Virus record (IMG/VR): IMGVR_UViG_3300030012_004560
Span: 1,899-36,436 of that record
Origin: a virus
Length of the DNA: 34,538 nucleotides
Strand: one strand, 5' to 3'
Shown in pieces: positions 4,878-19,600 of the stretch. Position 1 is the first letter of the stretch. Every line of letters starts with the position of its first letter. A program made the position numbers and the translations under genes. The notes below the pieces were generated by a model. It saw only the letters and a program-made list of their open reading frames with translations. It searched no databases and was not told where the DNA came from.

Positions 4878-6569
4878 TTACACCAAGTTGAGGTCGTGGA
4901 TGAATACCTTACCGTAGAAGTCTGGGCGAACCATCTTCTTCGCGTAACGTGTCATGATACCTTTTCTTGGAGTGAACGATACTGGATCGTATACAAGAGG
5001 AGTCATAATTAATGGGATGTATGGGGCAAATACAGCACCTGTTTCGAGGAACTGGTTACCTTTGTAACCCATTAAGATTACGTTTTCAGTCATGTATGGG
5101 TTCTTGTAAACAGTGTATCTAGAGTTAATAGCACCGATCTTCTGAACACCCATCGCGTACTTGTTAGAATCACCAGGTGAGTCAGCAGCGAATCCAGGAA
5201 TTGATTCGAGGATTGTGCTTACCTTTGGAGAAACTACCATGAAGTTAGCGCCACCGCGAAGAGTCTTCTGGTGGATAGTGTTGCTAACAGACTGGAGCTT
5301 AACACCTAAAGTCTGGAACCAAGACATCTTAGTGTAGTACTCGTTGTTAGTAGCAGCAGTTACAACACCAGTGTCAGAAGCTTCATCACCTACTTTTGCA
5401 CTCCAGTGATTTACAGTATCTGCGTTTCTAATCAACATATCGAGTAATTCGAGGTCGATTTCCATTGAAATATACTCAGAAAGAATAGACGTCAATTCCG
5501 CTTCAGCGTCAATGCTGTGGTAAGCATTAAGATCCTGAGCGAATTCTGGTGTCCACTGAGCCTTTAACTTACGAGTTTTCGCTGTAACAGTATCACTGTT
5601 TAGCTTAACGTCGATAGTTGGGATTTCAAGACCAGAAACTGCACCACCTGTGGTAGTATCAGTTGAATCTTCAAAATCACCTCTGTCGTCAAGGTTATCT
5701 GGGTTTTTCAAGTAACGAATTACCATAGCATCTTCATTAGCTAGGTCACCTGCTTTAGCATACATTTTAACAAAACCGTCACCAGCTGTAAAGGTGTTGA
5801 ATTGGCTAAAGTTAGTAACAGCATCACCACCAGCAGTTACAATTTCAAATGCTCTAACAGAATCTAAGTCAAGATCAGTCATTGAAGCTGTGTTGACTCT
5901 AACCTCAGCAACAGTTGTAATGTCACCAGCAGCACCCGCAGCTGAAGCAATGAATTCATCATCAAAATTTAAAGATGCAGAAGCACCAGCCTCTAAAGCT
6001 ACGAAAGAAGCTGAAACGTCAGTTAGTTCAGCGTGAGATGAAGTTAATAAATTTGAAGTTGATGTAGCTTCGTTAATAGAGTAACCAAAACGACCAGCAC
6101 CATAAAGACCGCTACCGGCACCATTTGCAGGAAGCACAGTTTTAGTTTTATCAGCTGATGCAGCGTATAAAGAATCACCTTTATCAAATTGGTTAAAGTT
6201 ATTACCATATTGGAAGTCTAGGTAAAAGATAAGGCCTGAAGGGAGGTTCATTGGCTGAACAGACACGAGGTCTTTAGCAACGATCTCACCAAATACTCTT
6301 CTAACGAGTGGAAGAGCAACACCTGCCCATGCTTCACTTTGGCCTGTAGTTACAGAAGTACCAGCACCAGAAGCACCTAACGAGTTAGCCTCGTTTACTA
6401 ATTGTCTAGCTTGGTTCTCAAGGAGAACAGCCATGTTTGCTTTTTCGCTCTCGTGGCCATTAAGACCTTCCAAGAGACCGGACTTTTCCCACTTACCCGC
6501 CAACTTAGCTGATTCAGCTTGTTGGTGTTGAAGTGGTGAAGCGCCCTCTAATAATGAGTTAACATTCAT
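4878..6569 (-). CDS. 23: Major capsid protein, T4 gp23-like
   Basis: This 563-residue protein builds the hexamers of the head shell. Clear gp23 hallmarks are VRRVFGEIVAKDLVSVQPMN at about 89-108, followed by the LPSGLIFYLDFQYG segment. The core block runs from KLKAQWTPEFAQDLNAYHS to LTSILSEYISMEID. A Ser/Ala/Asp-rich segment at roughly 130-310 sits where T4 gp23 carries its insertion domain. The first 60 residues look like the cleaved delta region: VNE|A at 58-61 is a good prohead-protease site and lies close to the known T4 cleavage point (after residue 65). The ATG is 11 nt after the gp22 stop, so the two are probably co-transcribed. A strong terminator follows. Residues 60-72 are identical to part of the 55-residue protein encoded at 8943-9110. 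Confidence 0.97.
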   Translation of the reverse strand: MNVNSLLEGASPLQHQQAESAKLAGKWEKSGLLEGLNGHESEKANMAVLLENQARQLVNEANSLGASGAGTSVTTGQSEAWAGVALPLVRRVFGEIVAKDLVSVQPMNLPSGLIFYLDFQYGNNFNQFDKGDSLYAASADKTKTVLPANGAGSGLYGAGRFGYSINEATSTSNLLTSSHAELTDVSASFVALEAGASASLNFDDEFIASAAGAAGDITTVAEVRVNTASMTDLDLDSVRAFEIVTAGGDAVTNFSQFNTFTAGDGFVKMYAKAGDLANEDAMVIRYLKNPDNLDDRGDFEDSTDTTTGGAVSGLEIPTIDVKLNSDTVTAKTRKLKAQWTPEFAQDLNAYHSIDAEAELTSILSEYISMEIDLELLDMLIRNADTVNHWSAKVGDEASDTGVVTAATNNEYYTKMSWFQTLGVKLQSVSNTIHQKTLRGGANFMVVSPKVSTILESIPGFAADSPGDSNKYAMGVQKIGAINSRYTVYKNPYMTENVILMGYKGNQFLETGAVFAPYIPLIMTPLVYDPVSFTPRKGIMTRYAKKMVRPDFYGKVFIHDLNLV

Positions 6570-6580
6570 GTTTTCTAAAA

Positions 6581-7795
6581 TTATTTGTTAATGTTTGCGA
6601 GTTTTTGGAATCTTGACACTGTTTCGTCAACGGATTCCGATAAAACCTTTTTAGGAGCAGTTCCGACGGGCTTTGAAGCGCGTGCTAAACCTTCCTTAAT
6701 TGCTCTCTTTTCTACACCTGTAAAGTTGAATGATTCTTGAAGTGTTTCAAATACCAATTTAGCTTCACTAGTTGTAGTAGCTTTGTCTAAGGCGTCAACC
6801 ACCTTAACTTTCTGTGCTTCGTTTAAAGCATTAGCTCTGAAGAGTTTGTTGCAGTAGAGAAGTTTGCTGTTTAAAAGGTTCATTTCAGAAATGGTTTCTT
6901 TAAGGGTAGAAACAGTTGCGAGTGCTTCATCACGCTCCTCTTTGAGTTGCTTGACGGCGCCATCGTATCCTGTGCTACCTTTTCCAGACTTACCATCGCC
7001 AAATGGAGCGCCAGGCTTACCTTTAGCAGGACCAGTGCCCTTGCCAGGTGAATCACCGTATGCTTCTTTGACTTCTTCTTCTTTACCATCGTCCTTTTTC
7101 TTCTTTTTACCTTCTTCGATTTCAGATTCGATTTCAGCAACAAGAGCATCGATGTCAAATGTTTCTTCAATACCTTCTTTTGGTAAATCAACGGCACCAG
7201 CAAAATCTTTCGCAAAGAAATCTTTTAAACCTTTACCTATACTACCACCGGCATCTTTGATTCTTTTTTGAACCTGGCTTTTACCACCAGCAGCCATAAA
7301 TTGACCACCTAATAGAGTACCAAATAGCCCTAATAAGACAGAAATAGATTCATTAAGGGGTTCTTCACCTTCCTTTTTCATGTCATCGTCTTCATCATAT
7401 GTCATACCTTCAGACTTTTCGTCTTCCTCATATGACATTTCTTCAAGCTCAGCCATGAGTTCATCAAGGTTGATTTCTTCATCGAGGTCTTCTTCAAGAC
7501 TAAATTCTTCCTTCATGTCCTCATCTTTTTCATCTTCGTCATAGGAACCTTCTTTCATGTCTTCGTCTTTTTCATCCTTCATGTAAGACATTTCTTTCAT
7601 GTCTTCGTCTTTTTCGTCTTCCATGTAGGTTTCTTCGAGTTCAACATCCTCTTCAATTTCTTCTGCTAATCTAGCAGAAAGCATTGATTTTAATTTAGAG
7701 TCAAACGCTTCTTCTAACGCCATTTTAGCGTTTTGCAAAGCGACTTCTCTAACAGCTTTCGCATCAGCGATTGCTTCTTTTAATAATTCAGCCAT
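6581..7795 (-). CDS. 22: Prohead core scaffold protein, gp22-like
   Basis: This 404-residue, highly charged protein is placed directly before gp23. The C-terminal third carries the block typical of T4-like scaffolds (LLNSKLLYCNKLFRANALNE at about 307-326, then KLVFETLQESF at 346-356). The N-terminal half is very acidic and contains three tandem 14-residue units with the core EKDEDMKE. A short hydrophobic stretch at about 150-169 and a Gly/Lys-rich linker at 250-275 follow. Candidate prohead-protease sites are LNE|S (147-150), IEE|G (226-229) and LSE|S (385-388), as expected for a core protein digested during maturation. It ends in SRFQKLANINK. It is longer than T4 gp22 (269 aa), mainly because of the acidic N-terminal region. 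The leader of about 120 nt is unusually long and folded. Confidence 0.88.
   Translation of the reverse strand: MAELLKEAIADAKAVREVALQNAKMALEEAFDSKLKSMLSARLAEEIEEDVELEETYMEDEKDEDMKEMSYMKDEKDEDMKEGSYDEDEKDEDMKEEFSLEEDLDEEINLDELMAELEEMSYEEDEKSEGMTYDEDDDMKKEGEEPLNESISVLLGLFGTLLGGQFMAAGGKSQVQKRIKDAGGSIGKGLKDFFAKDFAGAVDLPKEGIEETFDIDALVAEIESEIEEGKKKKKDDGKEEEVKEAYGDSPGKGTGPAKGKPGAPFGDGKSGKGSTGYDGAVKQLKEERDEALATVSTLKETISEMNLLNSKLLYCNKLFRANALNEAQKVKVVDALDKATTTSEAKLVFETLQESFNFTGVEKRAIKEGLARASKPVGTAPKKVLSESVDETVSRFQKLANINK
7502..7627 (-). repeat. Three 42-bp tandem repeats in the scaffold gene
   Basis: Residues 57-98 of the scaffold are three consecutive 14-residue units, each holding the core EKDEDMKE. 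This corresponds to three 42-bp units in the DNA. The first two units are almost identical, which suggests recent duplication. They add negative charge to the disordered N-terminal region. Confidence 0.8.
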
Positions 7796-7840
7796 TTTAC
7801 TTAATTTTTTTAGGCCTCCAGTAAATAAAATACGGGAAAT

Positions 7841-7858
7841 AGAGATTTTAGTATCTCT
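7841..7858. promoter_or_regulatory. Small hairpin in the scaffold gene leader
   Basis: Inverted repeat AGAGAT/ATCTCT with a 6-nt loop, about 50 nt before the scaffold ATG. It would form in the leader RNA if transcription starts at the box near 7919-7927. A function in translation control is only inferred. Confidence 0.3.
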
Positions 7859-7880
7859 AATAGGGATTTGTTTTTAAAAT

Positions 7881-7916
7881 CCAGGGACGTCATTTTAAGA
7901 TGACGTATGCTTCTGG
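7881..7916. promoter_or_regulatory. Extended hairpin between scaffold gene and divergent small gene
   Basis: A 7-bp perfect stem ACGTCAT/ATGACGT (7887-7893 with 7900-7906, loop TTTAAG) is enclosed by outer arms CCAG/CTGG (7881-7884 with 7913-7916). It has no T-tract on either strand that would make it a typical terminator. It lies in the divergent intergenic region and could be a leader RNA structure or a protein-binding site. Confidence 0.35.
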
Positions 7917-7918
7917 AA

Positions 7919-7927
7919 ATAAATATA
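7919..7927 (-). promoter_or_regulatory. Candidate phage promoter box before the scaffold gene
   Basis: The coding strand reads TATATTTAT after a T-rich run, about 125 nt before the scaffold ATG. It matches the recurring box at 9 positions, but the leader it implies is much longer than elsewhere. Confidence 0.3.
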
Positions 7928-7934
7928 AAAAAGG

Positions 7935-7965
7935 TTTGGAAACCAAAAATTTAATCGTATATTGA
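7935..7965 (+). promoter_or_regulatory. Possible Bacteroidota-type promoter for the plus-strand gene
   Basis: TTTG at 7935-7938 and TATATTGA from 7958 are separated by 19 nt. This resembles the known Bacteroidota -33 TTTG and -7 TAnnTTTG elements with one mismatch. It lies about 20 nt before the ATG at 7982, on the strand of the only plus-strand gene. It is a suggestion from pattern only. Confidence 0.3.
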
Positions 7966-7981
7966 TAACAAATTAAATATT

Positions 7982-8194
7982 ATGATGGATTTTATAAACG
8001 AAACATTTACATTAAACTTTTACCTAGGTTATCTATTAATAGGTACAGCTACATCATTTTTAATAGAAGCTGTAATTAGATGGTCTGGTCAAGAAGTTAA
8101 TGGAAGAGAAAGATTGTCTATGATTTGTGCGTGGCCAATAATGGCTACGGTTTTTATATACAATTTTGTAAAAGGATTACTAAATAATGATTAA
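7982..8194 (+). CDS. Small two-helix membrane protein (70 aa), opposite strand
   Basis: This is the only convincing plus-strand gene. The product has two hydrophobic segments, about residues 12-31 (FYLGYLLIGTATSFLIEAVI) and 45-66 (LSMICAWPIMATVFIYNFVK). A polar loop with RWSGQEVNGRER joins them. The start is ATG at 7982 or the next codon, ATG at 7985. Its end overlaps the end of the gp21 gene by 4 nt, tail to tail. It is inserted between gp21 and gp22 of an otherwise minus-strand operon and has its own possible promoter. Amphipathic and well-formed helices make a chance frame unlikely. Function is unknown; an inner-membrane role during infection is inferred. Confidence 0.65.
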   Translation: MMDFINETFTLNFYLGYLLIGTATSFLIEAVIRWSGQEVNGRERLSMICAWPIMATVFIYNFVKGLLNND

Positions 8195-8802
8195 CACTTA
8201 CACATACCTGTGTTATCACAAATAATATCACGGATAATATTGTGTACTTTAGTGTAATTAGCCATTGGGCGCTCTATACCCTCTTTTAACTGCTGTGGTG
8301 TTAATGTAGCACCAGGAGTAGATGGGGTAGACACTAAATCGAAGCATAGCAAATCAAAATCCTCTTGTACCATAAGTACACCGTCTGAATTTTCTTCTAC
8401 GGAACCCATTCCACGAGACGAAATGCCAACTGGTACACCTGCTTGGAATAATGATTTTGCTATGTTTCCTGCTGGGGTAGGTAGTATTTCGATCTGACCA
8501 TGTACGTCATTTCCATTCCACCAGCACTTATTAATTTTATGAGATACGTTATTTAAGTTAATAACAGATGAATCGGGGTGGTCTAGTTCGCCTAGTGCGT
8601 TATTTTCTTTAACTGGACCATCAATATATTTTGTCATTTCTCTTTCGAGAATTTGTCTTTCGTAGATACGGCCATTAGCGTTTTTAACACCTGCTCTTTG
8701 GATAATACCCTCTACAATAAGCGGGCCACCAGATTTCATTGACGATTCAACTAATAAACGGTCAACTTTTAATGGGATAATATCTACGATTAAGTTATTC
8801 AT
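8191..8802 (-). CDS. 21: Prohead core protease, gp21-like
   Basis: This 203-residue serine protease of the herpesvirus/T4 prohead protease type cuts scaffold, capsid precursor and internal proteins during head maturation. The family hallmarks are visible: GELDHP at 71-76 with the presumed catalytic His75, and GISSRG at 126-131 with the nucleophile Ser. The N-terminal block KNANGRIYERQIL (40-52) is typical of phage prohead proteases. A possible self-cleavage site LKE|G (172-175) precedes a C-terminal tail ending in the short Cys motif GMCKC. The start ATG overlaps the stop of the upstream 46-residue gene (ATGA), and AAGGA-like bases just before it could act as a weak ribosome site. The order gp20, gp21, gp22, gp23 is as in T4. 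Confidence 0.93.
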   Translation of the reverse strand: MNNLIVDIIPLKVDRLLVESSMKSGGPLIVEGIIQRAGVKNANGRIYERQILEREMTKYIDGPVKENNALGELDHPDSSVINLNNVSHKINKCWWNGNDVHGQIEILPTPAGNIAKSLFQAGVPVGISSRGMGSVEENSDGVLMVQEDFDLLCFDLVSTPSTPGATLTPQQLKEGIERPMANYTKVHNIIRDIICDNTGMCKC

Positions 8803-8939
8803 CTTCCTTGTCCTCTATATGATTTTTTATAGTTTTTTGAATTTTTGTGGTTGCTAGTTTTTGTTTTAGCATGTACACCGGGACGAGTTACTTTATGCCC
8901 GTCGTTATTAAATTCAAATGCGCTAATTCTTTTTGCCAT
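8799..8939 (-). CDS. Small basic head-module protein (46 aa)
   Basis: ATG at 8939, stop TGA overlapping the gp21 ATG by 4 nt (ATGA). It encodes a very basic peptide beginning MAKRISAFEFNNDGHKV. The second half, RPGVHAKTKTSNHKN followed by SKNYKKSYRGQGR, is rich in Lys, Asn and Ser. No cysteine, membrane segment or enzyme motif is present. The frame starts 3 nt after the previous gene, so three genes in a row (55 aa, 46 aa, gp21) are tightly coupled. Short basic proteins at this site take the place of T4 genes 67 and 68 (prohead core proteins), but no homology is claimed. DNA or scaffold binding is inferred from charge alone. Confidence 0.75.
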   Translation of the reverse strand: MAKRISAFEFNNDGHKVTRPGVHAKTKTSNHKNSKNYKKSYRGQGR

Positions 8940-8942
8940 AAC

Positions 8943-9110
8943 TTATTTTCTTTTTTTACGTTTCTTTTTAAATGCGAATGGGGTCATGTACCCTATTCCT
9001 TCACCAGGTGTATATGAAGTACCTGCTCCAGAGGCACCTAGTGAATTAGCTTCTTCTAATTCAGTTTTAATTAGTTCGCGAACTAACTGTCTTAATTGAT
9101 CTGAATTCAT
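8943..9110 (-). CDS. Small head protein sharing the mature capsid N-terminus (55 aa)
   Basis: ATG at 9110 overlaps the stop of the 281-residue gene (ATGA). The product has an N-terminal amphipathic helix (MNSDQLRQLVRELIKTELEE). The segment ANSLGASGAGTS at 21-32 follows, then YTPGEGIGYMTPFAF, and the tail KKKRKKRK is extremely basic. E20 plus ANSLGASGAGTS equals residues 60-72 of the capsid protein exactly. LEE|A at 18-21 fits the T4 prohead-protease rule, so the helix may be removed and the basic remainder left in the head. The position corresponds to T4 genes 67/68. The DNA for the shared stretch differs at 7 of 38 positions, mostly silent, which argues for selection on the peptide. Confidence 0.8.
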   Translation of the reverse strand: MNSDQLRQLVRELIKTELEEANSLGASGAGTSYTPGEGIGYMTPFAFKKKRKKRK

Positions 9111-9952
9111 TTTTGTGTTGCCTTAAGCTCATTAACCAAATTATAATAGTTAAGAAGGTTAATTACGTTATCGTCGTGAACTGAAGATTTTTTACACAAT
9201 GGTTTAATCAAGTTTTTAACTTCTGTAAGTTTAATTTGAGTAACTTGATCTGTGTTTTTAGCTAATGTTTCGATTTCTGCTTTTACCGCTATAATTTCTT
9301 CGTTAATAAAACGCTTCAATTTAGGGCTGTTTGAAACATTGTATACATACTCTTTAAGGAGTGTTCTTTGATTATCTGCTAAACCAGAGTATTTTTCATT
9401 AAATTTTTCCATTAACATTTTATGTGTTAATGCTCTGGTTTCTTTATCAAACTTTTCATATTCTTCCATTACAATTTCCTTTTTAGGTTTGTTTGGAAGA
9501 CCTTTTTCTGTAACGTGTTCTAAAATTGCAACTTTAGAATTCACTACAGACATGGGGTTAGCGTCTTTATTCTCTAATAGATTATAGACGCTAGCATATA
9601 TTTTATAATTAGGCACTTTAGCCTTAAAAAAATCTTCTATATTGTATGTATCCTTTATTTCTCTAACAAGGTTATATCTTTCTCTTCTTAAAATTGATTT
9701 ATTCAATTTATTATGAGCATTCATTAATGTCTCAATAAGAACAGTAGCGCTTGATTCTTTTTCAAATTTCTTGTTAAGTAAAGCATGGTAAATTTGATAC
9801 TCTTTTAAAAGAGTTGAATTTTTGCCAAAAAACTTTCTTAAGATACCTACAGCCTTTGGTTCAGAATTTGAAATAGTCTCCGAAGTAATTTGTCTCGTTA
9901 ACAATTCAAATAGTATCCCAGTATTTTTGTACTTGGAGTGCTTAGGTTTCAT
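9107..9952 (-). CDS. Conserved head-module protein between portal and protease (281 aa)
   Basis: This is a Lys/Glu-rich, probably all-helical soluble protein that starts MKPKHSKYKNTGILFELLTR. Long amphipathic helices follow, with no Cys pairs except a single Cys near the C-terminus, no signal peptide and no nucleotide-binding motif. The ILFELLTRQIT segment is reminiscent of conserved proteins at this site in marine T4-like phages (from memory, not verified). It sits directly after the portal gene and is translationally coupled to the 55-residue gene. T4 places prohead-core genes 67/68 here, so a role in prohead initiation or core assembly is plausible. Function is not established. Confidence 0.75.
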   Translation of the reverse strand: MKPKHSKYKNTGILFELLTRQITSETISNSEPKAVGILRKFFGKNSTLLKEYQIYHALLNKKFEKESSATVLIETLMNAHNKLNKSILRRERYNLVREIKDTYNIEDFFKAKVPNYKIYASVYNLLENKDANPMSVVNSKVAILEHVTEKGLPNKPKKEIVMEEYEKFDKETRALTHKMLMEKFNEKYSGLADNQRTLLKEYVYNVSNSPKLKRFINEEIIAVKAEIETLAKNTDQVTQIKLTEVKNLIKPLCKKSSVHDDNVINLLNYYNLVNELKATQK

Positions 9953-10000: not shown

Positions 10001-11848
10001 TTACTCTTTTATGATGTTTTCTTCGTCTAACATAGACGACTTATCTTCTTCAGATAATAGTTGTTTTCCCTTTAAACGATTTAATGATAGTTTCTTAAGT
10101 ATTCTTGAATTTTCTTCAAGTGCAAATGGAGAGACATCATTAGTTCTATTAGGACTATCGTCAGCTGTTAAGCCACCTTTACCAAGTGGGTCGCGGCTAA
10201 AGTTACTTTTATCCGTACCAAAATCGCTTAATTTAGATTTAGGACGACCTGGTTCGTTTTCATCATACCCATCAGGGATATCTTTAAGTCCTTTATCTCT
10301 TTTAGTAGCATATAGATTAGCTAAATCATGTGGGGTACCATATGATTCGCCTGATTCTATAGGATCGTTACCTTCATTTTCTATTTGGTTAGTGCGGAAG
10401 ATATGAGCAGCATCATCTAGGGATCTGTTTCTTTCATGATCCATTTCTTCTTGAGAAAGATTAAATACGTTTTTATAAACAAAATCAGTTGAAAGAACTT
10501 TTTTATCTAAAATAGAGTTTGCAAGTTCAACTTTAGACTTATATAATTCAGTCTTTTCTTGTTCAAATACAATTGAAGGGCCTGTGAGTGATAATTCAAA
10601 ATCTACTAAATCTGAATCTGTAAATCCCTGAGTATATAAGTGAACTAATGCTATTTTCTGTAATTCAGAAACGATTGTTCTTTGTAGGCGCTCAATTGTA
10701 CGAGCGAAACGAATATCCATAGCAGCTAGCGTTGATTTGCCTTCAAGGTTTTCATCGTATCCTAAGAACGCTTTTGGAATTTTAAGAGCGGCTAACATTC
10801 GATTCTTTAAGTATTCAATATCCGTTGTACCATCGTAATCAAGACCTTTTGTAGTTTCAATCTTAGTTGACGCATCATTACCTCTAACTGGGATATAAAA
10901 ATCCTCAGTCATGTTTTGGATATTAAATTTTAAATTATAGTCACCAGTATTTTGATCCACATATGGAGTCTTTTTCATCTGGTTAACAGTTTTTTGCATA
11001 AACGTATCAATTTCGTTTGGTGGAATACCACCTACGTTCATGTAGAAAATTCTTTTTTCTGGTGCGCGCATAATTCTGTGAATAAGCATTGCATCCTCCA
11101 TCAAGATTAACTGCTTAAATACTTTACGAGCTGGTTCAAGATATGAACGGCCATATGGGAGATAGTTAGCATCTGATAATAGTCTAAAGTGTGCTACCTC
11201 ATAATTCTCAAGCTTCATTTGATCTGTTCTTCTAGCACTATAAGTGTTAGATTGTGACAAACCGTTAGGATCTAGTACGAACTGTACATAACTTGGGTTT
11301 TCGGGGTCTAATCCTTCTTCTCTTACTACCTGATATACAGAAAGTGGTAAAGCATTATAAACACCAAATTTTTCAGATATTTGAAGGTGAAGATAAAAAT
11401 CACCGTATTTACACATTTGACGAACCCAAGATGGTAAGTTAAATTCTACATTAAGTACATCATAAAATAAGTTATGAAGCACGCGTTTTACATTATCATT
11501 TGATGATTTAATAGTTAATACATCACCATATTCATTTTTAAGGGTTGCTTCTTCTGAGATAATATCAAGTGCAGGAGCAATTAATGAATCATAATCCATC
11601 GCCTCATAATCGCTATAAAGCTGAAGGCGCATAGATGAGTAGTTAAGTGTAGGGTTGTATTGAAGTGACGAACCTACTGGCTTGTGTAATCTTGTAAATC
11701 TATCGTAAAGTGAGTTAGACTCTAGGTTACCATATTTTTGGATACGGTCAGTATCCATTATCTTGAGTTGATTACCTCCAACGTTTCTTATGATAACGTC
11801 GTTTGAAAATAATCGTCTTAATCGTGTAAATAAGCTAGTATCTGCCAT
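10001..11848 (-). CDS. 20: Portal vertex protein, gp20-like
   Basis: This 615-residue protein forms the dodecameric ring at one head vertex through which DNA is packaged and to which the neck attaches. The central region carries the T4-like portal signature (YLEPARKVFKQLILMEDAML, then HRIMRAPEKRIFYMNVGGIP, roughly residues 240-275). Downstream, GLDYDGTTDIEYLKNRMLAA and a segment ending in IPKAFLGYDENLEGKSTLA match the gp20 stem or clip region. The length is somewhat above T4 gp20 (524 aa), with a charged, disordered C-terminal tail. It follows the terminase gene after only 30 nt and has a candidate promoter box in that gap. In T4, genes 18 and 19 would lie between these two. Confidence 0.95.
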   Translation of the reverse strand: MADTSLFTRLRRLFSNDVIIRNVGGNQLKIMDTDRIQKYGNLESNSLYDRFTRLHKPVGSSLQYNPTLNYSSMRLQLYSDYEAMDYDSLIAPALDIISEEATLKNEYGDVLTIKSSNDNVKRVLHNLFYDVLNVEFNLPSWVRQMCKYGDFYLHLQISEKFGVYNALPLSVYQVVREEGLDPENPSYVQFVLDPNGLSQSNTYSARRTDQMKLENYEVAHFRLLSDANYLPYGRSYLEPARKVFKQLILMEDAMLIHRIMRAPEKRIFYMNVGGIPPNEIDTFMQKTVNQMKKTPYVDQNTGDYNLKFNIQNMTEDFYIPVRGNDASTKIETTKGLDYDGTTDIEYLKNRMLAALKIPKAFLGYDENLEGKSTLAAMDIRFARTIERLQRTIVSELQKIALVHLYTQGFTDSDLVDFELSLTGPSIVFEQEKTELYKSKVELANSILDKKVLSTDFVYKNVFNLSQEEMDHERNRSLDDAAHIFRTNQIENEGNDPIESGESYGTPHDLANLYATKRDKGLKDIPDGYDENEPGRPKSKLSDFGTDKSNFSRDPLGKGGLTADDSPNRTNDVSPFALEENSRILKKLSLNRLKGKQLLSEEDKSSMLDEENIIKE

Positions 11849-11878: not shown

Positions 11879-13471
11879 TTAACCTAGGAGCCAAGACAAA
11901 TCTTCATCTTTTCCTCCTACTTTCATTTTATACGCTTGTTTAGGGTCGTTTATTTTAGCAGTGCTAAAAAATGGATTGTAAGTTGCTTTAGTTGTATTTT
12001 CAAGCATAGCTCTAGTTAAATCAACTCCGTGTTGAGCGAATTTTAATGCAGTATCTCGCACGTAACATGCTGTAGCTATAGACATTATTAAGTCGTCATT
12101 ATAACCTGTTTGGGCTTCTGGTCGTCCATTTTTCCAAACGAATGTTCTTAATTCATCTAATGTACGTCTTGATTGAATTTGTATACTTTGTTCTTTAACA
12201 TACGCATCTAATTTTGCAATAGTTAATGGTCTAGTTTTAAGCGACATTGTAAAGCCGGGTACCATTTTTGATTTATCTATTAAATCGTATCCTTTAGCAA
12301 TATACGCCTCGGCATCACGAGTAAATTTTTCATCTTTAGGGCTGTAATATAGGTTTTCATAACCCATATCAATTACTTCTTGTATAGCAGCCCAACCAAT
12401 GTTTGCGTTTTCAATAACAAGTAATGCTTTATTATATTCAGTTGCTATGTTATATAATATTCGCCCAAAATCTTTAGTTGGTACTTGGTCTTTAAATTCA
12501 GCTACTTGTGTACAATTTTCAATGTCTATAATATGAAATGCTGAGTAATCTTTTGAGTCACCCCTTGCTACGTCAGCTACAACCATATATTGTCTTGTAT
12601 AGTCTGGGTATTCCCAAACCCATAAACTACTATTTATACCCCTTTTTTCTAGTGGGTCTTTTAACATTGTAGCTTCAATATGGTTTAATACTTCAGGTGG
12701 GAATACTGTATCACCAGAGGTTGTAAAATCGCAGTCACATTCCTGTGCCGCCATTCTTTCACCTAATTCATCATCTTGCCTATCTCTCCATTCTTGATTT
12801 CTTTCTGGGTGTACAGTCCATGGTAATCTAATAGGTGTAAAACCGCTTGTGCCGTCTTGTGCTTTAATCCATTGTCTATGGAACCAGTTACCAGTACCAT
12901 TTGGTGTAGATAATATTATTGCCCTACCACCAGTAGCAAGTGTTTGTTGTGCTGAACCCCAAATCTCTTCAATTCTATTTTCTTCAATAAATGCAGCCTC
13001 ATCAATTACTAGAAGTGAAATTGCTTCTGATCTACCAGCATCGCCTGCTGCGGATACTGCTTTAATTTGAGATCCATTTTTAAGTCGTAGTGACAGTCGG
13101 TTATTTTCTACTGTAGGTAATTTTAACCAACTAGGTAACTGATCGTACATAAATCGTACTTTAGTTACTAGGTTTTTAGCTGTTTCTTGTTTTGTTGCAA
13201 TTACAAGGATATTTTTATCCTTTTGGAATAGCATCATGTGTAAAGCTATACCTGCTGAAAGTGTTGAAATACCAAGCTGTCTTGATTTTAGGATTACTGA
13301 TTTATCGTGTTTATTTAGTAGTCCTAATACTTTTTCTTGGAATGGGTATAGGTTAAACTGTGTTCTACCTCTTGTTGGGTGTTGAATCCAACAATATTTT
13401 TTCATAAAGTAAACAGGATCGCTTGCTGATTTGACAAATTCCTGCTTTATAATTGCTTTAATGTCTGCCAT
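11879..13471 (-). CDS. 17: Terminase large subunit, gp17-like
   Basis: This 530-residue ATP-driven DNA-packaging motor and headful nuclease has its ATPase half first. The deviant Walker A is K62 followed by SRQLGIST (63-70). Walker B is LLVIDEAAFIEE from 153, with D157 and E158, and the coupling motif LSTPNGTGNWFHRQW begins at 188. The nuclease half has VVADVARGDSKDYSAFHIID (D300 and D308), LLVIENANIGWAAIQEV (E354) and YNDDLIMS (457-464), as expected for the RNase H-like fold with acidic metal ligands. It is shorter than T4 gp17 (610 aa) mainly at the ends. The position of T4 gp17 K166 is occupied by Ile, and the lysine stands at the start of the motif, as in several other phage terminases. 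A terminator lies just upstream, so it starts a unit. Confidence 0.96.
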   Translation of the reverse strand: MADIKAIIKQEFVKSASDPVYFMKKYCWIQHPTRGRTQFNLYPFQEKVLGLLNKHDKSVILKSRQLGISTLSAGIALHMMLFQKDKNILVIATKQETAKNLVTKVRFMYDQLPSWLKLPTVENNRLSLRLKNGSQIKAVSAAGDAGRSEAISLLVIDEAAFIEENRIEEIWGSAQQTLATGGRAIILSTPNGTGNWFHRQWIKAQDGTSGFTPIRLPWTVHPERNQEWRDRQDDELGERMAAQECDCDFTTSGDTVFPPEVLNHIEATMLKDPLEKRGINSSLWVWEYPDYTRQYMVVADVARGDSKDYSAFHIIDIENCTQVAEFKDQVPTKDFGRILYNIATEYNKALLVIENANIGWAAIQEVIDMGYENLYYSPKDEKFTRDAEAYIAKGYDLIDKSKMVPGFTMSLKTRPLTIAKLDAYVKEQSIQIQSRRTLDELRTFVWKNGRPEAQTGYNDDLIMSIATACYVRDTALKFAQHGVDLTRAMLENTTKATYNPFFSTAKINDPKQAYKMKVGGKDEDLSWLLG

Positions 13472-13533: not shown

Positions 13534-15459
13534 TTATATAAGGTAGTACTTTTCATCTTTCATTAATCTCCTCATTTCATCTTTACTGAATTGAGGGATT
13601 GCCCTTCCACTAGCATCCATTTTAAAAGCAGGGAGGAATTGTGTACCATCTAAATCAGATAATTGTGGCATAGCAAAAATTTCAACATCACCATTATCAT
13701 GAATTTGTACATATCCATCATTTCCAACAGCGTAAATGCCTTTACCTAATTGTGGTTGGGATCTTCCGAGATCTTCAAGATCCTTACTAGTATAGTAATT
13801 AGAACTGAATTCAAAATTATCATATAATCTTGTAAATTCTTCTTCGTTCCAAGGGCCTCTCATGTTAAAACCATAGATTTTGTCATTTGCCAAATCATAA
13901 TATCCGGCACCCCCAGAACCTACACCACCTAAAATACCATCAGCAAAGTTGAATCCAGCTTTTACTAGTATATCTTCAACGTCTCTAAGTTGTTCGTTAA
14001 GACTTAGTTTTTTTTTGATATCACTTTCAGTGATTAAACCAGCTAATTTTTGCATACGAAGTGTAGATTCGTTAAGTTCAAATGCTTCTTCATCAATAGC
14101 ATCTTCTTCAACTGGAATATCTTCATCCATTACTTTGCCTTTTTCGTCTTCATCATAGTTTTTAGGTAAAGCCATTTTTTTCATTTTACCATATTCTTTC
14201 TGAAGTTTAGCTTTAGCTCTTTCAAGTTCTTTAAGTTGCTTGCGAACTTCTTTAACAGCATTCTTATCCATCATGTCTCTAAACTCATTATCTTCGTCAA
14301 TACGAGTTAAACGACCTTCAGTTTCCTCGATCATTTCATCGATTGCTGCAAGTTTAGTTTCAAGGGCGGCTCTGCGTCCTTGATTTTCAATTTCTTTCAT
14401 CTTTTTAGCTAATGGGTTTTTAGCTTCTTTGATTTGCTGTTTAATGTATTTTTCTAAATTTGTCATAGTGTTTGTGTTTTCTTCCATTCCGAATCCACCA
14501 AAAGCCATAAGTTCCTCACGGTAAATATCGTTTTCAGCTTTTTTATATGCGTTATTAGCTACTTCTATAGCATTTGCTAATTTTTCAGGAGTAAGACCAT
14601 ATTTTGCAAGTTGGAGATTATTTTCTTTTACTTCTTTTTTTACAGCATTAAGAAAATCTTCTAAAGAACCTTTATCAAACTGCATGTCAGCTAACATTTT
14701 CTTTGCGCCACCATCAAGGTAATTTGTTTCAGGTACTTTTCTATTAAAATCAGCAACAGTCATCATTTCTTCTAATGCGTCAATTGAACCTAAATCTAAA
14801 TCTTCAAAATCACCAAAATCCATTGCTGTGGGATCATCAGCCACATCGAATTCAGCATCTCTGCGCTTTCTGCCTCTGGTTTCAGGAGCATCAGGGTCGC
14901 GAGTTGGTTCTTGTGCTTTTTTAAGTTGTGAGGTTAATGTAATTAAGCCCTTCATTTCAAGCGCTTTTAAAAATTTATTCGCTTGAGCGGGGCTACTATA
15001 TGAAGTAGCAGCAATTACGTCTTTAGAGGTAAATCCTCCATCTTGAACCATTGTTACTGCTAATGCTTTTATTTCTTCAGGTGTAAAACGCTTTTTAGGG
15101 CGTTTTTGTCCTGGCGACTTATATGTTTTAAGAATATTGTTTACACGTTGCATGAATTGAAGAACTTGTTTCATGTCAGCGTTTTGACTAAGTTTAAAGA
15201 TGTTCGATGTACGAGGCATCTCAGATAATTCTTCTTCAACATATGAAGGATCAGCACCAAATATAGGATCTGGTGACATATCTTCAATACCCGGAGGTGT
15301 TATATCGTCTTCTCCTTCAGCATCTGCTGCTCTTTTATCATCTAATTCTTCATCGTCTATAAAAGATTGAGCCGCCATTTTTTCTGGCGCATCACCCATT
15401 TCTTTTAGGGCTGCTTCGATTTCTTCGAAGATAATTTGTTTAATATCGTTTTTATTCAT
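13534..15459 (-). CDS. Multi-module phage protein upstream of terminase (641 aa), unknown role
   Basis: The ATG at 15459 (MNKNDIKQIIFEEIEAALKE) is preferred over an upstream frame from 15504, which would read through a promoter-like box. Modules in order: N-terminal helix; acidic linker (31-80); winged-helix-like segment (about 124-178, with SKDVIAATSYSSPAQANKFL) ending in an AT-hook-like TRGRKRR (194-200); an acidic stretch; a second start-like helix MTNLEKYIKQQIKEA (332-346); a coiled coil (about 350-428); LNESTLRMQKLAGLITES (462-479); and a Gly/Asp-rich C-terminal domain (500-641). Candidate prohead-protease sites are IKE|A (343-345), LNE|S (462-464) and ITE|S (476-478). It occupies the place of the small terminase (T4 gp16) but is far larger. 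It may be a packaged polyprotein, a DNA-recognition factor, or both. Function is unknown. Confidence 0.75.
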   Translation of the reverse strand: MNKNDIKQIIFEEIEAALKEMGDAPEKMAAQSFIDDEELDDKRAADAEGEDDITPPGIEDMSPDPIFGADPSYVEEELSEMPRTSNIFKLSQNADMKQVLQFMQRVNNILKTYKSPGQKRPKKRFTPEEIKALAVTMVQDGGFTSKDVIAATSYSSPAQANKFLKALEMKGLITLTSQLKKAQEPTRDPDAPETRGRKRRDAEFDVADDPTAMDFGDFEDLDLGSIDALEEMMTVADFNRKVPETNYLDGGAKKMLADMQFDKGSLEDFLNAVKKEVKENNLQLAKYGLTPEKLANAIEVANNAYKKAENDIYREELMAFGGFGMEENTNTMTNLEKYIKQQIKEAKNPLAKKMKEIENQGRRAALETKLAAIDEMIEETEGRLTRIDEDNEFRDMMDKNAVKEVRKQLKELERAKAKLQKEYGKMKKMALPKNYDEDEKGKVMDEDIPVEEDAIDEEAFELNESTLRMQKLAGLITESDIKKKLSLNEQLRDVEDILVKAGFNFADGILGGVGSGGAGYYDLANDKIYGFNMRGPWNEEEFTRLYDNFEFSSNYYTSKDLEDLGRSQPQLGKGIYAVGNDGYVQIHDNGDVEIFAMPQLSDLDGTQFLPAFKMDASGRAIPQFSKDEMRRLMKDEKYYLI

Positions 15460-15500: not shown

Positions 15501-15881
15501 TCAATCAGGCAGTGTATAACCTATAGTATTTATCAAGAATACTGTACCTAGAAAACCACCTGCGACACCTACCCACGGTCTGTTATACCATTTATCAACT
15601 TTATCTAAACGATAAACGTATAAATCTATTTCCTCATTTAGTAATCTTATTTCTTGATCCTTGTATAGGATTATAAGACTATCTTGTTTAGCTAACTGTT
15701 CGTGCAGTTTAATTTCAAATTCTAATTCTTGGATTAAAACTGTTTTAACCGAATCCTGAGTACGTAGTGTATCTAAAGCCAGGAAAAACTCTTCAAGTTC
15801 CGTTTGAGGAATCTGAAGAGTATCCTGTGAATAAACAATACTAGATACTCCTAATAGTAGAGCGACTAGTAATTGCTTCAT
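15501..15881 (-). CDS. Exported coiled-coil protein with signal peptide (126 aa), possible spanin
   Basis: It starts with a clear signal peptide (MKQLLVALLLGVSSIVYSQ, likely cut after Ser18 or nearby). The type ending in Ser-Gln-Asp is common in Flavobacteriia. A helical, heptad-like region follows (about 28-95, many Leu, Glu, Gln), then a hydrophobic segment WVGVAGGFLGTVFLINTIGY (about 103-122) near the C-terminus. The start overlaps the stop of the upstream 103-residue gene (ATGA). An N-terminal export signal, a coiled coil and a C-terminal membrane helix would fit a periplasm-spanning lysis protein, but no Cys lipobox is present. The role is inferred. Confidence 0.65.
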   Translation of the reverse strand: MKQLLVALLLGVSSIVYSQDTLQIPQTELEEFFLALDTLRTQDSVKTVLIQELEFEIKLHEQLAKQDSLIILYKDQEIRLLNEEIDLYVYRLDKVDKWYNRPWVGVAGGFLGTVFLINTIGYTLPD

Positions 15882-16189
15882 GACTTAGCTTTTGGCTTAC
15901 GACCTTTACCTCTGTACTTGTTTTCAAAGTTTTTGGTAGTTTGTTTAGCATTAGAAGTGTTTTTAACTTGCTTCTTAGTGTTACTTACTTTTTTCTTTTG
16001 AGCAGTGATTGCTTTTTTAGTCTGAGTTTTTTGTTGCTGAACTTGCTTGGTTTTAGCTTGTGTCTGCTTGACTTTTTTCTTAGTTTCATTAACCTTTTTA
16101 GTATGTTGTTTTTTACTTGTGGCTGCAACTACTGTAGCTGTCCCACCGATTGCGGCAAATAAGCCTAAAATCCATTTCCAAAGTTTCAT
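15878..16189 (-). CDS. Lys-rich protein with N-terminal membrane helix (103 aa)
   Basis: A single hydrophobic segment (WKWILGLFAAIGGTATVVAA, about residues 4-23) is followed by about 80 residues made mostly of Lys, Gln, Thr and Asn. The latter is arranged as a long amphipathic or coiled-coil helix (repeats of KKKV, KQ and TK). It is strongly basic to the end (GKGRKPKAKS). It is coupled to the following exported protein through ATGA. The two may work together in the envelope, for example as a lysis pair; this rests on topology only. I do not recognise the family. Confidence 0.65.
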   Translation of the reverse strand: MKLWKWILGLFAAIGGTATVVAATSKKQHTKKVNETKKKVKQTQAKTKQVQQQKTQTKKAITAQKKKVSNTKKQVKNTSNAKQTTKNFENKYRGKGRKPKAKS

Positions 16190-18915: not shown

Positions 18916-19352
18916 TATAATTCAGTATCGTCTGCTGGTTCTTCAGCGGGTTCATCTGCGGTGGGTTCTTCACCTCCTAAGTCATCAGAAGCAGTTTCTT
19001 CATCGTCAGAAGCTATTTTACCCTTTTGCATTAATTTTTCGAGCTCGTACTTTGCACCTCTAATATCGTCTTCTCTATCTAAGTCAAATAAAATACGATT
19101 AATATCAGCTTGCATATAACGGCCATTATCTATTAAATTAAATGATTGTCCATTTTCAAGGAAACATTTAAATATAGGCTTAGGTGCTTTAATAATTTTA
19201 ACGTCAACTACAGCTGAGGGGGGAATACCTAAAGTATCTGGTCCTAAAGCACTAAATGCTCCCGGGGATAATTGACGCAAATCATATTCGCGTTCCTCCC
19301 TTATCATTTGACGTATTTTACGTCTTAATTTTTGTTCAGTTAAATTATTCAT
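18915..19352 (-). CDS. Acidic-tailed phage protein with N-terminal IRxxIREE helix (145 aa)
   Basis: It begins MNNLTEQKLRRKIRQMIREE, one of several similar short N-terminal helices in this window. A small mixed alpha/beta domain follows (about 25-110, with PKPIFKCFLENGQSFNLID). The tail is disordered and strongly acidic, rich in Asp, Glu, Ala and Pro. IRE|E at 17-20 could be a prohead-protease site, though the P1' Glu is atypical. It is coupled by ATGA to the upstream basic 83-residue gene. No enzyme motif is seen and the role is unknown; prohead cargo is an inference. Confidence 0.7.
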   Translation of the reverse strand: MNNLTEQKLRRKIRQMIREEREYDLRQLSPGAFSALGPDTLGIPPSAVVDVKIIKAPKPIFKCFLENGQSFNLIDNGRYMQADINRILFDLDREDDIRGAKYELEKLMQKGKIASDDEETASDDLGGEEPTADEPAEEPADDTEL

Positions 19353-19600
19353 TTATTAGATACTATATCTGGTTTTCTACCTTGTGCTGATCGTTTTTTT
19401 CCTTTACCTGGTCTAAAATCTTTTTTCTGTTTGCCTCCTGTTCCTTTTATTTGTCCCTTACATACCTTAACTGCTCTAGCCATTAAAAACGGGTTATGTT
19501 TTTCACCTTGTCGTTTTCTTTTAGCTATATAAGCATATCCTCTTTTACATAATGCTTCGTCTAAATATTGTCTAATATATTCTCTTAATATATTATTCAT
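19349..19600 (-). CDS. Small basic phage protein with N-terminal targeting-like helix (83 aa)
   Basis: The N-terminus MNNILREYIRQYLDEALC holds the recurring helix and a good LDE|A site (13-16) for prohead protease. The rest is very basic, with a CKRGYAYIAKRKRQGEKHNP segment and a Lys/Gly-rich tail (GTGGKQKKDFRPGKGKKRS). Such peptides could bind packaged DNA. Its ATG overlaps the end of the 391-residue gene by 4 nt (ATGA), and its own end overlaps the next start the same way. No known enzyme motif is present. Confidence 0.7.
   Translation of the reverse strand: MNNILREYIRQYLDEALCKRGYAYIAKRKRQGEKHNPFLMARAVKVCKGQIKGTGGKQKKDFRPGKGKKRSAQGRKPDIVSNK

Follow-up and report, generated by a model that had tools for sequence, protein, structure and literature searches.

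A small basic protein of a T4-type phage head module shares the predicted mature N-terminus of the capsid protein and co-varies with it

The major capsid protein of phage T4, gp23, is matured by a cut between Glu65 and Ala66. In the mature protein, residues 66 to 91 form the N-fist, which is held by contacts between capsomers, and those N-fists that face the portal have no capsomer partner and are disordered (PMC7136217). Upon expansion of the head, the N-fist shifts to the outer surface, and how core proteins attach to the shell has been described as unresolved (PMC9958956). The sites of the T4 prohead protease, gp21, have the motif L/I-X-E (PMC9026906). Here, we analyzed a stretch of viral DNA (the window) of 34,538 nucleotides, positions 1899-36436 of the 81,487-bp IMG/VR virus record IMGVR_UViG_3300030012_004560. 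Its minus strand encodes a T4-type head module, from the terminase to the gp23 capsid protein, and in this module the capsid protein and a basic protein of 55 amino acids (aa) share a peptide at predicted cleavage sites of the gp21 type.

Several described head proteins resemble the small protein in part. The T4 proteins IPI to IPIII and Alt are, like it, small and basic with a leader ending in a gp21-type site, and packaging by the leader would be expected. However, the propeptides that are identical between IPII and IPIII are removed (PMC9026906), whereas the part in common at this locus is the N-terminus predicted to stay on the protein, and the other protein that has it is the capsid protein. 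The gp21 substrates gp67 and gp68 of T4 have their genes in the same slot, with the portal gene on one side and the protease gene on the other (20-67-68-21-22-23 in T4), but gp67 has a net charge of -25 versus +5 for the 55-aa protein. Homology with these two proteins was not supported by BLASTP and profile searches: gp67 gave no match, gp68 matched only over a basic stretch (E 0.038), and the family profile gave no match. In SPN3US, the head proteins gp53 and gp54 likewise have a short identical stretch where processing is predicted, but these 15 residues lie at the very N-terminus, their removal is predicted, and the two proteins are paralogs (PMC5694885). For T4, no second protein with the N-fist segment was found described in the sources consulted, unlike the situation at this locus. 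The elements that we compared are as follows, with a slash marking a predicted or known cut.

8943..9110 (-), open reading frame (ORF) of the 55-aa small basic protein: leader, N-fist-like segment, TP.AF, and KKKRKKRK tail (same slot in all 115 loci compared below)
9051..9110 (-), small-protein leader, residues 1-20, MNSDQLRQLVRELIKTELEE, the predicted propeptide ending in L-E-E
9015..9053 (-), small-protein copy of the shared peptide EANSLGASGAGTS, residues 20-32
8988..9050 (-), small-protein N-fist-like segment A21-Y41 (own-capsid similarity and co-variation)
8946..8969 (-), Lys/Arg-rich C-terminal tail of the small protein, KKKRKKRK (from the sequence)
8191..8802 (-), prohead protease, gp21/S77 type (Peptidase_S77 PF03420, E 4e-33)
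4878..6569 (-), major capsid protein, gp23 type, 563 aa (Gp23 PF07068, E 5.5e-79, 266.7 bits versus a gathering score of 24.4; sequence matches to T4 gp23 structures)
6390..6569 (-), predicted capsid propeptide, residues 1-60 (cut placed by alignment with T4 and by the invariant E60)
6354..6392 (-), capsid copy of the shared peptide EANSLGASGAGTS, residues 60-72
6327..6389 (-), capsid segment A61-W81, equivalent of the T4 N-fist 66-91 (alignment; N-fist limits from PMC7136217)
5610..5618 (-), T-I-D at capsid residues 318-320, evolutionarily coupled to P2' of the mature capsid N-terminus (Pagel likelihood ratio)

A preliminary description of this DNA had reported 13 identical residues in the two proteins, and the ORF translations bore this out: EANSLGASGAGTS is present at residues 60-72 of the capsid protein and 20-32 of the small protein, and it was found in no further reading frame of the window nor in the rest of the record. 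In 3,000 composition-preserving shuffles of the two 40-residue neighborhoods, the longest common run was at most 5 residues, compared with the 13 observed. The divergence of the two DNA copies had been given as 7 of 38 positions, mostly silent; the synonymous character of the changes held, while the count had to be corrected to 8 of 39 bases, all of them synonymous, with 5 of the 13 codons identical. Both copies had also been placed at plausible prohead-protease sites, and the sites do resemble the gp21 type. The leader of the small protein ends in L-E-E at residues 18-20, in agreement with the L/I-X-E criterion for internal head proteins processed by gp21, whereas the capsid protein has Val at P3 before the predicted cut (V-N-E), unlike the Leu/Ile of the T4 motif. 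The capsid site, described earlier as close to the T4 gp23 cut, falls exactly on it in the alignment (E60/A61 on E65/A66). The similarity between capsid and small protein ends at Trp81, which aligns with T4 Ile91, and the shared segment therefore spans the T4 N-fist from the cut to its last residue. Glu60 was invariant in 26 aligned capsids, as was no other residue up to Ala85, and this alignment, unlike the extraction of the small-protein segments, was made without requiring a Glu. These comparisons point to a probable cleavage of the capsid protein after E60, and the small protein is quite probably processed by the gp21-type protease as well.

Scanning IMG/VR with the capsid protein and several small proteins gave 115 loci in which both genes were readable. 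In all 115, the small protein is encoded on the same strand ahead of protease and capsid, with the portal upstream wherever that region was covered, and the gene order in the group is portal, 281-aa protein, small protein, protease, capsid. All 115 slot proteins are organized alike, with a leader, a Glu, the segment, Y.TP.AF, and a basic tail in this order, and the segment is similar to the N-terminus of the mature capsid protein, with some divergent and shortened exceptions. In one example, the segment ANVTNVGGASFTPGxGAQYA, followed by TPxAF or similar and a Lys/Arg-rich part, is matched in the capsid protein of the same genome by ANSTNVGGGSFSAGAGEQWA after the Glu. The shared 13-mer thus stood, but it is one case of a longer element of about 20 residues, reaching to the aromatic residue Y41 in the small protein and W81 in the capsid protein, that is common to both proteins throughout the group. 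The leader is usually a helix-like stretch of 20 residues, but some clades have unrelated N-terminal parts, of 62-191 residues, instead; leaders would be expected to be exchangeable in this way if all that precedes the Glu is cut away. In 76 genomes, P3 of the small protein was Leu in 42, Ile in 10, Met in 8, and another residue in 16, while the invariance of the Glu itself is partly by construction because segment extraction required it. The 45 residues after the Glu were net positive in 74 of these 76 genomes, in keeping with the earlier view that the mature small protein is highly basic. In the group with capsids ending in EEWS or EEWA, the small proteins have E/ANVTGNxDGGEGPPKTP or similar, and in L054 and its relatives the cut can be placed only to within one residue. 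The motif E-x-[NS]-x-T-[GN] was present in 62 of 73 small-protein ORFs and 61 of 76 capsid ORFs and in none of the 310 other ORFs of the same intervals, including scaffold and protease. The small protein had no significant family match in Pfam, PHROG, or PDB (the best PHROG match among relatives, at E 0.012, involved one 312-aa version and lay outside the segment); tblastn against the phage collection gave nothing significant, a scan of bacterial and archaeal genomes gave no match, and a search of the literature library found no virion proteomics of immuto-like phages. In one relative, Flavobacterium phage vB_FspM_immuto_2-6A, the slot protein is the product of immuto26A_199, and the capsid protein has VSE/ANVTG at the predicted cut.

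The small-protein segment was more similar to the capsid protein of its own genome (0.532) than to other capsids (0.360) in a set of 76 genomes with capsid identity below 95%. When only genomes of one cluster (capsid identity of at least 75%) were compared, own pairs scored 0.558 and exchanged pairs 0.496 (p 0.0002, the limit of the test), and the excess also held in clusters of at least 80% identity (p 0.0002, likewise the limit). Positions P2' (Asn or Ser) and P5' matched most above expectation, while P3' did not. Capsid P2' was the best partner of small-protein P2' among 641 capsid and protease columns, and small-protein P2' was the best partner of capsid P2' among 245 columns. In Pagel tests on a capsid-plus-protease tree, a type of test that can overstate support when it is based on few changes, the two P2' positions gave a likelihood ratio (LR) of 24.1, compared with a median of 5.8 and a maximum of 15.5 for 107 control columns. 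The LRs for P5' and P6' were 19.4 and 17.9, with none of 90 controls each as high, and the residue that precedes the aromatic one, at the far end of the segment, had an LR of 13.6, with 2 of 90 controls as high. Changes on the same branch numbered 4.7 at P5' versus 2.0 expected and 4.9 at the far end versus 0.7 expected. The preliminary description had proposed aligning both proteins in relatives, and across genomes the segments do co-vary: at P2', P5', and P6' the signal exceeds what phylogeny accounts for, and it is weaker at the far end. Where own pairs had the same residue, they used the same codon in 47.1% of cases, fewer than the 52.5% that capsid codon usage would predict and close to the 44% of other-genome pairs. 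Gene conversion was therefore rejected, and the similarity is held at the protein level, as had been suggested earlier together with the lack of a recent duplication.

Capsid P2' was coupled most strongly to D320 of the same protein (LR 27.9, first of 284 columns) and then to T318 (LR 23.3, second). In a larger set of 117 capsids and 185 columns, residue 320 again ranked first (LR 29.0) and residue 318 third (LR 23.2), and residues 318, 315, 326, and 311 were all among the top twelve partners of P2'. At residue 320, Asp occurs with P2' Asn and Asn with P2' Ser. This coupling is as expected if P2' contacts the shell. Because the motif is confined to small-protein and capsid ORFs, because the coupling extends to the far end of the segment, and because capsid P2' is coupled to residue 320, the shell is favored over the protease as the partner of both segments. 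Among the functions proposed in the preliminary description, a common partner is thus favored, in the form of the shell, while a protease-recognition element has become less likely.

The best-supported description of the small protein is a protease-processed prohead protein that is distinctive in its capsid-matched mature end, and the co-changing starts of the two proteins suggest that it may plug into the same shell slots. The chances seem about even that it mimics the capsid N-fist with its mature N-terminus and docks on the shell at N-fist sites. The leader (residues 1-20) would bring the small protein into the prohead and would be cut off after E20 at the stage when the capsid protein loses residues 1-60. 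The freed segment A21-Y41 would then copy the mature capsid N-fist and fill N-fist-type sites of the shell, perhaps sites that a capsid N-fist cannot occupy (portal-facing or vertex) or perhaps only transiently before expansion, and the Lys/Arg tail would face or hold DNA or other internal (core) components. Cleavage, location in the head, docking, and the role of the tail are all predicted here from sequence. More tentatively, and with somewhat lower odds than for docking, the small protein may represent a new family of head proteins, in which an N-fist mimic exposed by the protease plugs pockets left without a capsid N-fist, at the portal vertex or in pentamers; a single proteolytic event would then mature both shell and plug.

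Several observations weigh against docking at the shell. Small-protein P2' was coupled only moderately to capsid residue 320 (LR 15.5), less than to protease residues Q120 (LR 21.6) and N2 (LR 19.3). Same-branch changes of the two P2' positions were few (2.8 versus 1.0 expected), and in a contest with the nearest relative the own capsid was ahead in only 39 cases versus 24, with 13 ties. In L010, L160, L163, and L158, a SLGASGAG insert was kept in the capsid protein and not in the small protein (the SLGASG insert in both proteins is also found in L104 and L137). Additionally, in L149-L152, L154, L156, and L157 the slot protein is shortened to E/GEGIGYMTPxAF or EE/EGIGYMTPKAF, whereas the capsids of these loci, where read (L151, L152, L154, and L157), keep a T.QGGATFTAGQGAQWA-like segment. 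Relatives with the segment only in the capsid protein, which the preliminary description had regarded as evidence against its proposal, therefore do occur to this extent, and exact identity of the two segments is not obligatory. The movement of the T4 N-fist to the outer surface on expansion (PMC9958956) means that a tail facing the DNA is not assured. Finally, the AlphaFold2 model of the capsid protein was poor (mean predicted local distance difference test score, 53; predicted template modeling score, 0.35), too poor to be usable for contacts or a fold search.

The high scores of protease columns 120 and 2 with small-protein P2' would be explained if the segments served prime-side recognition, with the cleft of the protease reading both of them around the cut; they would then follow changes in the protease, and nothing would tie the small protein to the shell in particular. 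The coupling does include P1' and P2', and 23 genomes, each of which has Asn at P2' of both substrates, carry Pro at protease residue 79, four positions downstream of the presumed catalytic His. However, these genomes form one clade in which the Pro arose once on the tree, and S79 was therefore rejected as a P2' partner, its strong contingency being phylogenetic; Q120 showed no same-branch changes with small-protein P2' (0.04). Moreover, T4 gp21 needs little beyond L/I-X-E (PMC9026906), and the coupling at P5', P6', and the far end lies at a distance of 5-20 residues from the cleavage site. Scaffold and protease ORFs, whose T4 counterparts are also substrates, lack the E-x-[NS]-x-T-[GN] motif, and this absence, together with coupling at 15-20 residues from the cut, makes recognition by the protease a less likely explanation.

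Somewhat less probable still is a third partner, such as a decoration, scaffold, or portal-associated protein, that binds both mature N-termini, with the small protein competing with or regulating the capsid protein in assembly. Coupling along the whole segment and strict synteny with the head genes would fit such a partner, but the coupling of capsid P2' to capsid residues 318-320 makes the shell itself the simplest one. The segments can be aligned up to the aromatic end in most genomes, as they would be if a fragment had simply been copied from the capsid gene to the small gene, or in the opposite direction, and what similarity remains were neutral; with codon identity below expectation and no trace of conversion, with similarity that survives deep divergence, and with position-specific coupling, we consider such common ancestry alone improbable. 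Convergence on a flexible Gly/Ala/Ser/Thr linker without a shared function appears the least probable of all, as the low-complexity composition of both segments does not account for a run of 13 residues that far exceeds those in the shuffles, nor for the results of the own-versus-other comparisons.

The remaining features of the head module in the window are the following.

11879-13471 (-), terminase
10001..11848 (-), portal, gp20 type (Portal_T4 PF07230, E 2.7e-66)
9107..9952 (-), conserved 281-aa protein between portal and small protein (in 112 of 115 loci; no significant match in Pfam or PHROG family searches)
8799..8939 (-), basic ORF of 46 aa lying between the small-protein and protease genes (E 0.0018 to phrog_516, a family of unknown function; 24 of 115 loci have it)
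6581..7795 (-), presumed scaffold/core protein in the gp22 position (from position and acidic repeats; no family match in Pfam or PHROG)

No second gene of the gp23 family (gp24 type) was found in the 81-kb record, which may be a fragment. The acidic repeats of the presumed scaffold, at 7528-7620 (-), are three near-identical copies of the DEKDEDMKE type. An 83-aa basic ORF at 19349-19600 (-) begins with MNNILREYIRQYLDEALCKRGY and has a similar leader ending in L-D-E/A, and it is a possible second protease-processed head protein. The 46-aa ORF and a 103-aa basic ORF at 15878-16189 (-) have the C-terminal motif (K)xYRG[QK]GR in common, which was also seen in ORFs of 43-44 aa in L023, L030, and L036. 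A further motif, [RK].QKLA[GN], occurs as SRFQKLANINK at the C terminus of the scaffold and as LRMQKLAGLITES in a 641-aa ORF at 13534-15459 (-), with similar stretches, NRLKKIAGLLKE and KRMQRIAGILKE, in the slot ORFs of L023, L030, and L036; this stretch is a candidate scaffold-binding element.

Overall, a copy of the N-fist that is matched to the capsid protein would, if true, link shell maturation, internal proteins, and the sealing of vertices. It would be relevant to a large and mostly uncultured group of T4-like aquatic phages, in which a gene slot without database annotation gains a testable function.

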